From positions 1,054,001 through 1,118,000 of the forward strand of contig NZ_LT627736.1 in the NCBI RefSeq assembly GCF_900102005.1: a stretch of DNA of 64,000 nt. The letters run 5' to 3'. Shown here piece by piece: positions 13,652-50,547 of the stretch; positions within the stretch are counted from its first letter, which is position 1; the number at the start of each line of letters is the position of its first letter. This stretch comes from Microbacterium sp. LKL04 (GTDB taxonomy: Bacteria; Actinomycetota; Actinomycetes; Actinomycetales; Microbacteriaceae). Made by a program: the position numbers and the translations under genes. The notes beneath the pieces are model-generated. The model was not told where the DNA came from and did not search any database. It worked only from the letters and a program-made list of their open reading frames with translations.

Positions 13652-14740
13652 ATGACCACCCCCGCCTACGAGATCCGCCCGCTCATCGTCCCCGCCTCGC
13701 TCGATGCACCGAACGCGGCGGACTTCATCGCGATGGTCGACGTCCGCAATGAGATCTACCGAGAGATCAGCGCGAACGATGATGAAGCCGCGACACCGGC
13801 CCAGCTGCTGCCCCACTTCCAGGAAGACCCCGACAACGACAAACACAGCTGGATCGTCCTCGTCGACGACGAGGTGGCCGGACGCGTCATCGTCGACATC
13901 CCCGCCGAGCAGGGGTCACAGGTCGCGTACTGGACGGTCGAACTACTCGAACGCGTCCAGGGCAGAGGGATCGGTTCCGACCTTCTCGAACTCGTCGAGG
14001 AGACGGCACGCCAGGCTGGACGAACCGTCCTGGAATCCTGGGCGGAGCACCCGGAACCCGCGGACGGCGTGTCGGTCCCACGACTCCCCGCACCGACCGA
14101 GTTCGGCACCATCCCACAGGACCGCCCCGCGCGGTACTACCTGCGTCACGGGCACACCCTCGAACAGGTGGACCGCAAGAGCATCCTCGACCTGGATGCC
14201 TCGCTCGCGACCACCCGCGCACTGTTGGCGGATGCCGAGACCCACTCGGCGGGCTACCGCGTCGAACAGTGGCTGCTCCCCATTCCCGCGCAGTATCGCG
14301 AGAGTTTTGCCTGGGCGAAGTCCCGCATGTCGACGGATGCCCCCACGGCCGGCCTCGAGGTCGACGAGGAGAAGTGGGATCTCGATCGCCTCGAGCGTCA
14401 CGAGGCGCGTTACCTGGAAGCCGGCCAGACCGTCCTGGTCACCGCGGCGGTCCACGAGGCCACGGGCGATGTCGTCGCCTTCAACGAGCTCTGCTCCGGA
14501 GCTGACCCGACCGCGACCACGCAGCAGATGGACACCCTGGTGCTCCGGGAGCACCGTGGCCACCGTCTGGGCCAGCTCATCAAATGCGCGGGAATCCTGC
14601 GGTGGCGAGAAATCGCTCCCGAGTCACGCCGGATCATCACCTGGAATGCCGAGGAGAACCGGCCGATGCTGAGCATCAATGAGGCGATCGGGTTCGCCCC
14701 CGCCGCCTACATCGGCGCCTGGAAGAAGGTACTCGCCTAA
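13652..14740 (+). CDS. double-domain GNAT N-acetyltransferase
   Basis: A 362-aa protein built from two GNAT folds. The N-terminal copy has the acetyl-CoA pyrophosphate loop RVQGRGIGSD at residues 101-110, and the C-terminal copy has REHRGHRLGQ at 299-308, followed by the typical NENxxM-like segment (WNAEENRPMLSINEAIGF). The two-domain layout resembles mycothiol synthase MshD and antibiotic-type acetyltransferases, but the overall sequence does not identify a substrate. A CAGGAG box precedes the ATG at 13652. Its last 4 bp overlap the convergent mutM. It ends an apparent accessory cluster starting at the 36-aa ORF. Confidence 0.85.
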   Translation: MTTPAYEIRPLIVPASLDAPNAADFIAMVDVRNEIYREISANDDEAATPAQLLPHFQEDPDNDKHSWIVLVDDEVAGRVIVDIPAEQGSQVAYWTVELLERVQGRGIGSDLLELVEETARQAGRTVLESWAEHPEPADGVSVPRLPAPTEFGTIPQDRPARYYLRHGHTLEQVDRKSILDLDASLATTRALLADAETHSAGYRVEQWLLPIPAQYRESFAWAKSRMSTDAPTAGLEVDEEKWDLDRLERHEARYLEAGQTVLVTAAVHEATGDVVAFNELCSGADPTATTQQMDTLVLREHRGHRLGQLIKCAGILRWREIAPESRRIITWNAEENRPMLSINEAIGFAPAAYIGAWKKVLA

Positions 14741-15654
14741 GCTCGGCGCTGGCATTTCGGGCAGTAGTGGCTCGACCGGTTGGTGAAGCTCACCCGGACG
14801 ATCGGCGTCCCGCATCGAGGACACGGTTCGCCCGTGCGACCGTACGCGTTCAGCGAGTGGGCGAAGTAGCCGGCCTGCCCGTTGACGTTGACGTACTGCG
14901 CGTCGAAGCTCGTTCCACCCTCGGCGAGGGCCCGGTGCAGAACCGCCCGGACCTCGCCGAGGAGGCGCCCGAGCGACCGGGTCGAGAGATCGTTTCCGAG
15001 GCGCTCCGGGTGCAGCCGTGACGCCCAGAGTGCTTCATCGGCGTAGATGTTGCCGATGCCGCTCACGACGGTCTGGTCGAGGAGGACGCGTTTGACAGCC
15101 GAACGCGTGCGGAGCACCGCGCGCCGGAAGGCGTCCTCGTCGAAGGCCGGATCGAGCGGATCACGCGCGATGTGCGCGACCTGGCTCGGCACCAGCGCGA
15201 CGTCGCTCCCCCGCCCGCCGGCCGCGCCGTCGGGCGTGGGATCCAGACGATCGACGGCCAAAGATCCGAACGTGCGCTGATCGACGAAGACGACGGCGAG
15301 ATCTCCGTGTTCCGGATGCCGCACGTCGAGCCGGATGCGCTCGTGCCGCAGCGGCGGGGTCCCGGACTCGCGGAGGAGCATCTGGCCGCTCATACCGAGG
15401 TGGCCGACGATTGCCTCACGCTCACGGACGTCGGTCCCGGCCGTTGTCGTCGCCAGCGGCATCCACAGGAACTTGCCGCGACGGACGACACCGTCGATGC
15501 GTCGACCGGTCACCCGGAATTCGAAGTCGGCGGCGTCGCCCGCGTGGCGTGTCAATGCTCGCGCGTCGGAGACGGTCACGGCGTCGATCCGCGAGCTCGC
15601 CAGAGCCGGTTCGAGGCCGGCGCGGACGACCTCGACCTCAGGCAGCTCGGGCAC
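14737..15654 (-). CDS. mutM: formamidopyrimidine-DNA glycosylase MutM (Fpg)
   Basis: MutM removes oxidised purines such as 8-oxoguanine and nicks the abasic site. The 305-aa protein starts MPELPEVE, giving the catalytic Pro2 and Glu3, and has the conserved Lys in RRGKFLW, the helix-two-turn-helix near RTRSAVKRVLLDQTVVSGIGNIYADE, and a C-terminal four-cysteine zinc finger (CPRCG ... YCPKC). It lies 6 bp downstream of rnc in the usual rnc-mutM order. Confidence 0.96.
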   Translation of the reverse strand: MPELPEVEVVRAGLEPALASSRIDAVTVSDARALTRHAGDAADFEFRVTGRRIDGVVRRGKFLWMPLATTTAGTDVREREAIVGHLGMSGQMLLRESGTPPLRHERIRLDVRHPEHGDLAVVFVDQRTFGSLAVDRLDPTPDGAAGGRGSDVALVPSQVAHIARDPLDPAFDEDAFRRAVLRTRSAVKRVLLDQTVVSGIGNIYADEALWASRLHPERLGNDLSTRSLGRLLGEVRAVLHRALAEGGTSFDAQYVNVNGQAGYFAHSLNAYGRTGEPCPRCGTPIVRVSFTNRSSHYCPKCQRRA

Positions 15655-15660
15655 GGCGCC

Positions 15661-16353
15661 TCACGCCTGCGACGACAGCACGCGCCAGACGGCGAGAGCA
15701 GCCGCCATCTCGGCCTGCTTCTTGCTGGAGCCGCCCCCGGTGCGGGAGACGTCGCCGACAGCGACCGTTGCGGTGAAGACCCGATGGTGATCGGGCCCCG
15801 CGGCATCCACGCTGTAGGTCGGTGCCGACATCCCGCGCCGTGCCGCGAGCTCCTGGAGCGCGGTCTTCGGGTCCATCGCTGCGCCGTACCGCTCCGGGTC
15901 GGCCATCAACGGCGAGACGAGACGGAGCACGAGCGCGGTCGCTTCGTCGATGCCCGCGGAGAGGTAAGCGGCACCGATGAGCGCTTCGGTCGTGTCCGCG
16001 AGGATCGAATCCTTGTCGCGGCCGCCGGTCTGATCTTCACCCCGCCCCAGTCGCAGGTGGGCGCCGAGACCCATGCCGCGAGCGACTTCTGCGAGAGCGA
16101 CGGTGGATACGACGCTCGCGCGTCGCTTCGCCAGCGAGCCTTCGTCCAGCTCGGGATGCGACCGGTAGAGGTGCACGGTCACGGCCATGCCGAGGATCGA
16201 ATCGCCGAGGAACTCCAGCCGCTCGTTGTGAGCGATCCCGCCATGCTCGTACGCATACGAGCGGTGGGTGAGCGCAAGCGACACAAGCTCGGGGTCGATA
16301 TCGACCCCGAGCTTGTGTGTGAGTACCGAGTGATCGGTCACTGCGTCTGTCAC
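15661..16353 (-). CDS. rnc: ribonuclease III
   Basis: RNase III cuts double-stranded RNA in rRNA precursors and mRNAs. The 230-aa protein has the catalytic signature ERLEFLGDSILGM near residues 43-55, the second metal-binding block DTTEALIGAAYL, and a C-terminal double-stranded RNA-binding domain (DPKTALQELAARRG to the end). It is in the DUF177-rpmF-rnc-mutM order, starting 10 bp after rpmF. Codons 12-25 contain a perfect 38-bp palindrome (16281-16318) that would fold the mRNA into a long hairpin, a plausible self-cleavage site; see the separate entry. Confidence 0.96.
   Translation of the reverse strand: MTDAVTDHSVLTHKLGVDIDPELVSLALTHRSYAYEHGGIAHNERLEFLGDSILGMAVTVHLYRSHPELDEGSLAKRRASVVSTVALAEVARGMGLGAHLRLGRGEDQTGGRDKDSILADTTEALIGAAYLSAGIDEATALVLRLVSPLMADPERYGAAMDPKTALQELAARRGMSAPTYSVDAAGPDHHRVFTATVAVGDVSRTGGGSSKKQAEMAAALAVWRVLSSQA
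16281..16318. repeat. perfect 38-bp palindrome inside the 5' coding region of rnc
   Basis: ACACAAGCTCGGGGTCGAT at 16281-16299 is followed immediately by its exact reverse complement at 16300-16318. In rnc mRNA it would form a hairpin of about 17 bp with a minimal loop, spanning codons 12-25. Such long perfect duplex is the class of structure RNase III cuts. The palindrome is seen directly; the regulatory role is inference. Confidence 0.9.
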
Positions 16354-16363
16354 GACGCGGCGA

Positions 16364-16573
16364 TCAGATGTCGGCGACCTTGCGGCCCTTGTACTCGAGG
16401 AACAGCTCCGTGCCCTGCGAGTCGGTGACGACCTTCGCCTGGTGGGGACGGCTGTAGACGACCTTGCCGTTCTCGATGGTCTTGACGAGCGTGGGGGCCT
16501 CGGCCTTCCACTGCGCGCGACGCGAACGGGTGTTGGAGCGGGAGACCTTCCGCTTCGGGGGGTTACCTGCCAT
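16364..16573 (-). CDS. rpmF: 50S ribosomal protein L32
   Basis: A 69-aa basic ribosomal protein. The start MAGNPPKRKVSRSNTRSRRA is characteristic of L32. The long actinobacterial form continues with a TLVKTIENGKVVYSRPHQAK segment. No zinc-binding cysteines are present, so this is the C-minus (zinc-independent) type. The gene is 2 bp after the DUF177 stop and 10 bp before the rnc start, the standard yceD-rpmF-rnc arrangement. Confidence 0.95.
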   Translation of the reverse strand: MAGNPPKRKVSRSNTRSRRAQWKAEAPTLVKTIENGKVVYSRPHQAKVVTDSQGTELFLEYKGRKVADI

Positions 16574-16575
16574 GG

Positions 16576-17151
16576 TCAGCTCTTCTCTGTGTCGTCGGCG
16601 GCGGGGCGTACTGCCTCGTCGTCGTGGTCTGTGGATGGGGCCGACAAGGCGGCCAGCGCAGTCCAGCGCGGGTCGATCTGAGTCTCCGGGACCGGTGCTT
16701 CGGTCAGCTTCTCGCCCGTGGTCGGATCGAGTCCGGGGCAGTCCGGCTGACACACCGGCTGGAACGGAAGCGACAGGACGATCGCATCCCTGACCCCTGT
16801 TTCAAGATCCACGTGGTCGTCTTGAACCTGGAAGTCAGTCGCTTCGTCCCCAGAATACCCGAAGAGTTCCTGAAACTCGACTTCGAGCGGGCGTGTCAGG
16901 TCCATGAGGCACCGGCTGCACTGCCCCTCGTACGTCGCCGCGATGTCCGCGGTGACCAGGATCCCCTCGTGGACCGACTCGAGACGGACGTCGACACGGA
17001 CGTCGCTACCCTGGTCGACCCATGCCAGCCCCTCGCCCCACTTCTCGGGTGCCGGGACCGTCACCTCGAACTCGCGCATCTCCCCGGGTGCCCGGACGAT
17101 GTCCCGGACGGGGAGGACGAAGGGACCGCTGTTCACACGCTTTCTGACCAC
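16576..17151 (-). CDS. DUF177 (YceD) family protein
   Basis: A 191-aa protein of the DUF177/YceD family, linked in bacteria to 23S rRNA accumulation and nearly always encoded before rpmF. The family core is seen in YEGQCSRCLMDLTRPLEVEFQELF (residues 75-98), with a CxxC that pairs with later cysteines (PVCQPDCPGL). The tail is acidic. The GTG at 17151 gives the expected length. The neighbour rpmF begins 2 bp after its stop, so they are probably cotranslated. Confidence 0.88.
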   Translation of the reverse strand: MVRKRVNSGPFVLPVRDIVRAPGEMREFEVTVPAPEKWGEGLAWVDQGSDVRVDVRLESVHEGILVTADIAATYEGQCSRCLMDLTRPLEVEFQELFGYSGDEATDFQVQDDHVDLETGVRDAIVLSLPFQPVCQPDCPGLDPTTGEKLTEAPVPETQIDPRWTALAALSAPSTDHDDEAVRPAADDTEKS

Positions 17152-17192
17152 GGTCGTCCATGCTACGCGTGACGGAGACCCCGCGGGCCGGA

Positions 17193-17690
17193 TCAGCCGG
17201 TACGCGCGCCGTTGTCGAGGAAGCGCGCGACGGGGCCTGGTACGAACGGAGACACATCGCCCCCGAGCGAGGCGACCTGACGGACCAGCGAACTGGACAC
17301 CAGAGCATGCGCGGGATCGGGCAGGAGGAAGACCGTCTCGATGTGAGCGAGATGCCGATTCACGATGGCCATCGGTGTCTCGTACGCGACGTCCACCTGC
17401 GACCGGATGCCCTTCACCAGCACGCCGGCGCCCACATCGGTCGCGTAATCGACGAGGAGTCCGACGCTCCAGGCGGCCACGACCACATCACCCTCGATGC
17501 CTTCCTCCTCGATCGACTGCTCGAGGAGCGACAGACGCTGCGCGATCGGCAGCATCGCCTCTTTGCCGGGGTTGTGCACGACGAGGACATGCAGCTGGTC
17601 ATACAGTGCTGCAGCCCTGCGGATGACGTCGAGATGCCCGAGGGTCGAAGGGTCGAAGGAACCCGGCACGACGGCGATCCGGTTGTTCAT
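17193..17690 (-). CDS. coaD: phosphopantetheine adenylyltransferase CoaD
   Basis: CoaD makes dephospho-CoA from 4'-phosphopantetheine and ATP, the fourth step of coenzyme A synthesis. The 165-aa protein shows the nucleotidyltransferase motif [13 protein letters not shown] (TxGH, residues 9-21) and the C-terminal ATP site SSSLVRQ near 130. Length and start are standard. It lies between recG and the DUF177 gene on the same strand, as in other actinobacteria. Confidence 0.96.
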
Positions 17691-34012: not shown

Positions 34013-34026
34013 CGCAGCGCCGCAAC

Positions 34027-34062
34027 GACGAAACCCCCGACCTGATGGTCGGGGGTTTCGTC
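34027..34062. terminator. 16-bp perfect stem terminator between DUF4349 gene and tRNA-Glu
   Basis: Arms at 34027-34042 and 34047-34062 pair perfectly around TGAT. It sits 15 bp after the DUF4349 stop and 7 bp past the tRNA-Glu 3' end on the opposite strand, so it serves both convergent transcripts. Confidence 0.85.
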
Positions 34063-34069
34063 ATCTGTG

Positions 34070-34895: not shown

Positions 34896-34910
34896 TCGGA
34901 CACGACAGAA

Positions 34911-34950
34911 TGACGGATGCCGCGGGGCTTTCGCTCCGCGGCATCCGTCA
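34911..34950. terminator. bidirectional stem-loop terminator between MBL hydrolase and ptsH
   Basis: TGACGGATGCCGCGG at 34911-34925 pairs perfectly with 34936-34950 around a 10-nt loop. It is placed between convergent genes and should end both transcripts. Confidence 0.8.
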
Positions 34951-34967
34951 TTCGTGGGGGTCGAGAC

Positions 34968-39156: not shown

Positions 39157-39191
39157 GACGACGCCCCCGGTTCCGGACCGGGGGCGTCGTC
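39157..39191. terminator. 14-bp perfect stem terminator after the oxygenase gene
   Basis: Arms at 39157-39170 and 39178-39191 pair perfectly with a 7-nt loop. It lies just downstream of the oxygenase stop (39207) on the minus strand and upstream of the fruR promoter, separating the two transcripts. Confidence 0.85.
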
Positions 39192-49965: not shown

Positions 49966-50508
49966 ATGAGTAGACCTCCTCGGGCGCGCGAGAGCGTCCT
50001 CGACGCCTTCGAAGCCGCCCTGATCGATGAGGGCGCACGCGGCGCGACGATGGATGCCGTGGCCGCCGCGGCCGGCGTCTCGAAGGGCGGACTGCTCTAC
50101 CACTACGCCACGAAGGAGGCGCTCGAAGCCGCCCTGATCGAGCGGATGCGACGACTCGTCGACGCGGACGTGGAGGACATGCTCCGCTCCCCCGACGGCA
50201 TCGTCTCCGCCTTCGTCCGCACCTCCGTCCAGTCCGACACTCCCCTGGACCGCGCGATGGTGGCGACCTCCCGCCTGGCGCAGACCGGGCACGACGCGGC
50301 ATCCGTCGCCCTCCGCGACGTGCGGCGGGTATGGGAGGACGCTCTCCGGCCGCACACGCGCGATGAGAGCGCTCTGCAGCTGGTGCTGCTCGTCAGCGAC
50401 GGGCTCTACTTCAACAGCGCACTGGCGACGACGGGCGTGCCCGGCCCCATCCCGCAAGGCGCCGACCTCGACGCACTGATCGCGCTCGTCGAGCGCGCAG
50501 CGCGCTGA
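49966..50508 (+). CDS. TetR-family regulator of the adjacent exporter
   Basis: A 180-aa TetR-type repressor. The helix-turn-helix is RESVLDAFEAALIDEG and ATMDAVAAAAGVSKGGLLYHYATKEAL (residues 6-49). It is divergent from the DHA2 exporter and is probably its repressor. The ligand pocket sequence gives no specific clue. Confidence 0.88.
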   Translation: MSRPPRARESVLDAFEAALIDEGARGATMDAVAAAAGVSKGGLLYHYATKEALEAALIERMRRLVDADVEDMLRSPDGIVSAFVRTSVQSDTPLDRAMVATSRLAQTGHDAASVALRDVRRVWEDALRPHTRDESALQLVLLVSDGLYFNSALATTGVPGPIPQGADLDALIALVERAAR

Positions 50509-50547
50509 GGCATCCCCCGCCGACCGGGCGAAGGATGCCGCAGCGCG

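Follow-up and report, generated by a model that had tools for sequence, protein, structure and literature searches.

A perfect palindrome within the first codons of rnc

The stretch of Microbacterium sp. LKL04 DNA that was analyzed, 64,000 nucleotides long and referred to here as the window, contains on its minus strand an open reading frame (15661..16353) that starts with GTG and encodes a 230-aa RNase III, with an RNase III domain and a dsRNA-binding domain (Pfam: Ribonucleas_3_3, E 1.9e-38; Ribonuclease_3, E 5.7e-24; dsrm, E 2.1e-13). Three neighboring genes on the same strand were likewise assigned from their open reading frames and Pfam matches. The rpmF gene for ribosomal protein L32 (16364..16573) is the immediate upstream neighbor, separated from the rnc start by 10 nt, and is preceded by a yceD/DUF177 gene (16576..17151); mutM, encoding formamidopyrimidine-DNA glycosylase (14737..15654), lies downstream of rnc. 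The rpmF and rnc genes are presumably co-transcribed.

Positions 16281-16299 (19 nt) are followed with no spacer by their exact reverse complement at 16300-16318, which confirms the perfect 38-bp palindrome reported in the original prediction. On the minus strand it opens with the third position of codon 12 and closes with the first position of codon 25 of rnc, within the first 25 codons as had been stated. The predicted hairpin of about 17 bp was recovered by folding: as RNA, 16281..16318 folds at −34.2 kcal/mol into a stem of 17 bp capped by an AUAU loop, with a z score of −10.3 alone and −5.8 in a 141 nt context. The 5' arm (16302..16318) begins with the last base of codon 12 and ends with the initial base of codon 18, the loop occupies 16298..16301, and the 3' arm (16281..16297) reaches the first base of codon 25. 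The hairpin is within the coding strand of the RNase III gene, and hence in the predicted rnc transcript.

The next longest perfect palindrome with zero spacer in the window is 18 bp. Looped hairpins of similar strength also occur elsewhere in the window, and by the hairpin score used here, which together with its strong-hairpin threshold of 30 is our own, the one in rnc takes fourth place among 23 minus-strand hairpins. Other long hairpins of the window, of about 15-21 bp, are found at 34908-34953, 34024-34065, 39157-39191, and 50501-50547 and are possibly terminators or repeats. The rnc hairpin itself is not an intrinsic terminator, since what comes after the stem on the minus strand is a run of mixed rnc codons, TCG CTT GCG, and not a U-tract. 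Covariance models of Rfam detected no family at gathering score in the interval 15000-17500, where the overlapping matches, of 17.9 and 17.6 bits, were to miRNA families with gathering scores of 50 and 100.

The hairpin exceeds what protein sequence and codon usage provide

The RNase III motif KLGVDIDPEL, encoded by the stem, can in principle pair with itself at the codon level, since reverse-complementing any KLGVD codon gives a codon that IDPEL could use. It must be considered that the palindrome is a chance by-product of this motif and codon bias, or that it acts as DNA, as a protein-binding or recombination site. We regard this alternative as extremely improbable, for reasons given here and in the following sections. 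For the comparison, each sequence was set separately against synonymous sequences encoding the same protein, with codons drawn from pooled codon usage. The set comprised the window and 79 of 80 fetched relatives (n = 80; L050 was missed by the motif). In keeping with the pairing capacity of the motif, the mean of the null was already 9.6 of the 13 core pairs.

Only a small fraction of synonymous sequences of the window reached the 13-pair core (P about 0.002). All 13 pairs are Watson-Crick in 59 of the 80 sequences, and 75 have at least 12 pairs when G-U is allowed: 64 with all 13 (synonymous P ≤0.012) and 11 with 12 (P about 0.02-0.04). Leifsonia shinshuensis, which is outside Microbacterium, is among those with all 13. 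Three of the 80 (L044, L046, and L079) are not above the synonymous null (P 0.10-0.25), as a by-product of motif and codon bias would predict. The low P values of most of the set argue against that reading, as does the recurrence of the hairpin with new codons in three further family groups of the order, f6, f7, and f9, which we suspect to be Micrococcaceae, Brevibacteriaceae, and the Dermatophilaceae/Intrasporangiaceae group. P was ≤0.05 against the synonymous null in 26/28 sequences of f6, 28/28 of f7, and 26/28 of f9, and all 13 pairs were present in 19/28, 26/28, and 23/28, compared with 23/28 in the Microbacterium genus sample (g1). Sequences within a group are related, so the per-sequence P values are not independent; their kinship is partly addressed by the tree counts given below and by replication across the four groups.

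Rare codons are preserved in the stem, for example CTT, which accounts for 7% of Leu codons. Along rnc, the two 10-codon windows with the highest excess of synonymous identity begin at the first stem codons, and the sole codon with its third base in the loop has no excess codon identity (−0.09). The synonymous null, a scan of the whole gene, and controls with slid pairing partners all led us to reject an origin by chance under the given protein and codon usage. Judged by these comparisons, the rnc hairpin is neither a chance structure nor a by-product of the protein. One relative in the set, L004, comes from a contig titled Stenotrophomonas maltophilia; it has the same hairpin, and its RNase III shares 82% identity with the Microbacterium query. 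The contig is probably a contaminant or mislabelled.

The scan of the whole gene was made without prejudice as to site: 2,714-2,822 combinations of position and loop over the whole of rnc were compared with synonymous nulls. The stem site came first in Microbacterium (n = 29) and in f6, f7, and f9 (n = 30 each); it was not at the top of the scan for 88 sequences of other Microbacteriaceae genera, nor for 28 sequences of the class. In Microbacterium rnc, a second and weaker pairing excess occurs some 194 nt past the K codon (9.0 vs. 6.7 in the null, of 13 pairs). The mean folding z score of the 60-nt window over the site was −5.6, −6.6, −6.4, and −5.7 in the four groups, that of the neighboring next window about −4 to −4.6, and those of the remaining windows −1.7 to +1.0. 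The 90-nt bin of the site holds 127 strong hairpins over 129 sequences, and the surrounding kilobases 0.005-0.023 per bin and sequence. When a covariance model of the hairpin was run on its own 2.9-Mb genome, the rnc site scored 59.6 bits and the next match 19.9 bits (150 of 9,673 candidates were scored).

Compensatory changes and linked amino acids

In 189 sequences of the four groups, 97.8% of the cells at the 13 core pairs are paired. Across 55 distinct sequences and all 17 pairs, the figure is 95.1%, with 10 pairs changed on both sides. The covariation score of these 55 sequences was 0.432 vs. 0.148 after shuffling, and none of 500 shuffles was as high; the count of pairs changed on both sides is, by itself, less striking, with 35 of 500 shuffles as high. 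Changes were also counted on a tree of 325 sequences, a protein tree made from the rest of RNase III. Over the whole tree, 76 branches carry a double change from one pair to another at the 13 pairs, whereas partners slid by +3, −3, +1, and −1 gave 15, 19, 14, and 10. Single changes, counted on the whole tree with all lineages together, break a pair 429 times and restore one 186 times. The tree counts and pairing statistics indicate that the structure is under strong selection at the RNA level, beyond protein coding, across several families.

The original prediction had named a lack of conservation or of compensatory change in close relatives as a possible refutation; instead, conservation and compensation both proved strong, and they reach beyond Microbacteriaceae. 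Compensation had been expected at third codon positions. It was found, in the form of linked synonymous and amino-acid changes, because in this register third codon positions pair with first positions. In Microbacterium, the Gly-Pro codons GGG/CCC are exchanged for CGC/GCG (Arg-Ala), AGG/CCT (Arg-Pro), and GGC/GCC (Gly-Ala), and also for GGA or GGG with TCC (Gly-Ser), all of which pair; GGA/CCC, with one A-C mismatch, is likewise found. Besides AAG/CTT (Lys-Leu), the outer codons in f6, f7, and f9 are CGT/ACG (Arg-Thr), AGT/ACT (Ser-Thr), or CAT/ATG (His-Met); in these groups GTC/GAC also alternates with ATC/GAT. AAG-CTT (115), CGT-ACG (39), and AGT-ACT (15) together account for 169 of the 189 sequences. 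Thr occurs as the last codon 55 times, and the first codon is then always Arg or Ser; Leu is the last codon in at least 117 of 136 other sequences. The third base of the Gly codon is linked more loosely to its partner residue: GGG with Pro in 113/116 and GGC with Ala in 13/15, yet GGA with Pro in 11/15. As read from these alignments, the hold of pairing extends from codons to the amino acids themselves, most often as Lys-Leu AAG/CTT, Arg-Thr CGT/ACG, and Ser-Thr AGT/ACT.

The type of imperfect pair bears on whether the palindrome acts as DNA. In Microbacterium, G-U (13 cells) and A-C (14 cells) are equally frequent, as a DNA element would allow, but in f6, f7, and f9 G-U clearly prevails (43 vs. 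11 cells; 56 vs. 25 overall). Sense-strand RNA is thus the better reading of these sequence data than DNA, with the Microbacterium count neutral. The exact dyad center is also not conserved: the central bases vary in relatives, with GAT, GAC, GAG, CAC, and others as the loop codon, and the conserved object is therefore the stem and not the full DNA palindrome.

Distribution and relocation of the hairpin

A strong hairpin is present at the same codons in 182 of the 189 rnc sequences of Microbacterium and the family groups f6, f7, and f9. Classic RNase III substrates have two helical turns, and the Microbacterium stem is below that, often being short (median 15 paired bp, range 12-19). The seven remaining sequences are without a strong hairpin, and L044 and L046, which group with Microbacterium, have none scoring even 20 near the rnc start, which suggests that the hairpin is dispensable in some species; these two apparent losses provide a useful comparison.

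Conservation of the exact site throughout Microbacteriaceae was rejected, the site being occupied in 13 of 89 sequences outside the genus. Class-wide conservation was also rejected: all 13 pairs were found in 0/28 class sequences, P ≤0.05 in 5/28, and a strong hairpin at the site in 2/27. At the threshold of 30, no strong 5' hairpin was found among other Microbacteriaceae in 58 of 89 sequences, among the remaining sequences of the order in 13 of 20, and in the class sample in 25 of 27. L312, the one class sequence that we judge to be Streptomyces-like, forms 7 of 13 pairs at the site, and over the stretch that was scanned it showed no strong hairpin. Within the samples compared, the hairpin is a common but not a universal feature.

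In genomes of the order, 79 of 198 have a covariance model match at E ≤0.01 anywhere, the weaker of which are not necessarily in rnc. Two f7 matches of about 37-39 bits are outside rnc (G173:C16:155470-155513 and G239:C6:28273-28315) and could be hairpins of the same shape.

To describe hairpins at other places, a relocation set was used (n = 110) that consists of 88 sequences from other Microbacteriaceae genera, 21 from other families, and L082 of Microbacterium. Its strong hairpins cluster near the gene start: 39 fall between −90 and +45 of the K codon (three bins of 45 nt) and nine in all other bins, over about 1 kb. By our reading of the list, 14 of the 39 share the site of the four groups and the other 25 do not. 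Newly drawn samples were then compared by genus. In one genus (g15), a hairpin lies 29 nt before the K codon in 26/30 sequences; in a second (g3), it is at −8 in 6/6; and in a third (g32), a hairpin of 18-22 paired bp is at −39 in 28/29. These hairpins are of 14-22 bp and are conserved within each genus, with 83.9% (g15), 89.2% (g3), and 93.7% (g32) of cells paired, compared with 50.2%, 46.1%, and 49.6% for the best slid partners. Covariation is clear in g15 (0.219 vs. at most 0.102 when slid) and absent or weak in g3 (0.039 vs. ≤0.035) and g32 (0.092 vs. ≤0.041), where the hairpins are kept mainly by identity. On this comparison, the hairpin of the codon 12-25 type is, in some genera, replaced by other hairpins nearby. 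The relocated hairpins differ in sequence and have non-palindromic loops. A DNA palindrome is therefore judged unlikely, since the dyad center varies and the hairpins relocate.

A probable target of RNase III in its own mRNA

The best explanation of the element, and one that we consider likely, is autoregulation by self-cleavage of the rnc mRNA. The 5' coding part of the message would fold into a long, near-perfect hairpin with a core of 13 bp, group median lengths of 15-18 bp, and a small loop, the core beginning about 9-14 codons past the start codon. This hairpin would be a cis-acting site for RNase III, which would bind there and cleave the message that encodes it. With RNase III in excess of its other substrates, the stem would be cut and the rnc message inactivated, so that less RNase III is made, and the rpmF part upstream would be spared or separated after the cut. 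Translating ribosomes and RNase III could compete at the hairpin. We infer RNase III to be the reader, cutting to be its action, and negative feedback to be the effect. That RNase III itself is the reader is suggested by the fact that the double strand is kept and the sequence is not: a structure that stays constant while sequence and place shift fits a reader of double-stranded RNA with little sequence preference. The autoregulation reading of the original prediction is supported by the conservation and compensation described above, and the putative element is in the right gene and as large as RNase III substrates are.

The covariation would look the same under another role, be it one of dsRNA binding or one at the level of the ribosome, which counts against taking it as a mark of self-cleavage. 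One such role is that of a regulatory or kinetic translation element that RNase III does not cut, and that slows ribosomes or represses early elongation on rnc, perhaps with another factor bound. Strong structure in the 5' coding region generally affects translation, and the nearest candidate ATG or GTG start lies 27-42 nt before the core (group medians; none was found in 3/30 sequences of f6 and 1/100 of g1). The initiating ribosome, whose footprint ends just short of the core, would thus probably not cover the hairpin, and the position just outside it is one that a translation element might occupy. We nevertheless consider this explanation unlikely: the length is kept (a core of 13 bp, up to about 22 bp) with freedom of sequence and place, and among the surrounding kilobases such hairpins are nearly confined to this part of rnc, all of which points to a reader of double-stranded RNA that the gene itself encodes.

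The hairpin might instead serve rpmF, with RNase III or another nuclease processing the rpmF-rnc transcript to yield a separate L32 mRNA or to protect its 3' end, and control of rnc being secondary. In favor of this, 187 of the 189 four-group sequences have an L32 motif at most 420 nt upstream, with its stop codon 28-117 nt before the K codon. However, in the four groups the hairpin is inside rnc codons, with matched changes of RNase III residues, even though the intergenic sequence could accommodate it; cleavage of the stem would leave rpmF with no protective hairpin; and with no U-tract there is no intrinsic terminator. A primary role for rpmF is accordingly quite improbable.

If self-cleavage by RNase III is accepted, the enzyme would be under a double constraint in this order, a proposal that we favor with some reserve. 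The N-terminal codons would have to form the enzyme's own cleavage substrate, and the helix would have fixed or exchanged residues in matched pairs (K-L, R-T, S-T, H-M, and, with exceptions, the third base of Gly with P, A, S, or T). Where a lineage is without the helix, a different one could be found elsewhere near the gene start, and the self-targeting operator would then move while the circuit stays in place.

Relation to known systems

The principle of RNase III autoregulation is already known in Escherichia coli, Streptomyces, and Staphylococcus aureus. A class of RNase III autoregulatory mRNA hairpins is a functional one and implies no common ancestry. In E. coli, the rnc stem-loop (rncO) is in the 5'-UTR, whereas the hairpin described here is within codons. 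Autoregulation of S. coelicolor absB (rnc) was reportedly described by Xu et al. in 2008.

In S. coelicolor, as summarized in the available part of a review, RNase III cuts the polycistronic absB transcript once in the rnc cistron and once upstream (PMC10126417). The likeness is that of an actinobacterium, with the cutting within the rnc cistron being a feature of S. coelicolor; the cuts are in loop regions according to the same part of the review. For E. coli RNase III sites, the accessible text of another source describes no strong consensus and a dependence on stem structure (PMC8708148).

The accessible portions of the S. aureus study report that RNase III cuts a hairpin in its own coding sequence, that catalytic mutants accumulate more of the protein, and that the hairpin (helix III, cut at U+296) is, according to its authors, conserved among staphylococci; the authors also state that the regulatory site differs between distant bacteria (PMC3386247). 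The common feature is an RNase III gene with a stem-loop in its own coding sequence; the demonstrated cut and negative feedback are those of S. aureus. Its helix is long and irregular and near nt 296, whereas the helix here is near-perfect and at codons ~9-25, with cleavage predicted, and no homology of sequence or position is implied. The same portions give a stem of at least one helical turn as the minimal RNase III substrate (PMC3386247), and the stem of the candidate substrate is at least that long (17 bp in the window; medians of 15-18 paired bp in the four groups). The hairpins of the DGCR8 mRNA that are cut by Microprocessor, as described in the available part of PMC2736397, are an analogy only, being eukaryotic and involving another gene and another machine.

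Among the literature matches listed, judged by title and start of abstract, there was no description of the element; subscription papers are mostly outside the coverage of the search. Four things appear to be new: the element, how far it extends in the order, the influence it has on amino acids, and its relocation. They would make a case, built on sequence alone and on tree-based compensatory changes, for RNase III autoregulation through coding sequence in several families of one bacterial order, and would clearly exemplify an mRNA helix that dictates residues of the enzyme it encodes. If the reading is true, synonymous recoding of the stem codons should release rnc from feedback. Genera with the hairpin at the same place, at other places, and with none form a natural series in which the evolutionary relocation of a regulatory RNA can be studied.
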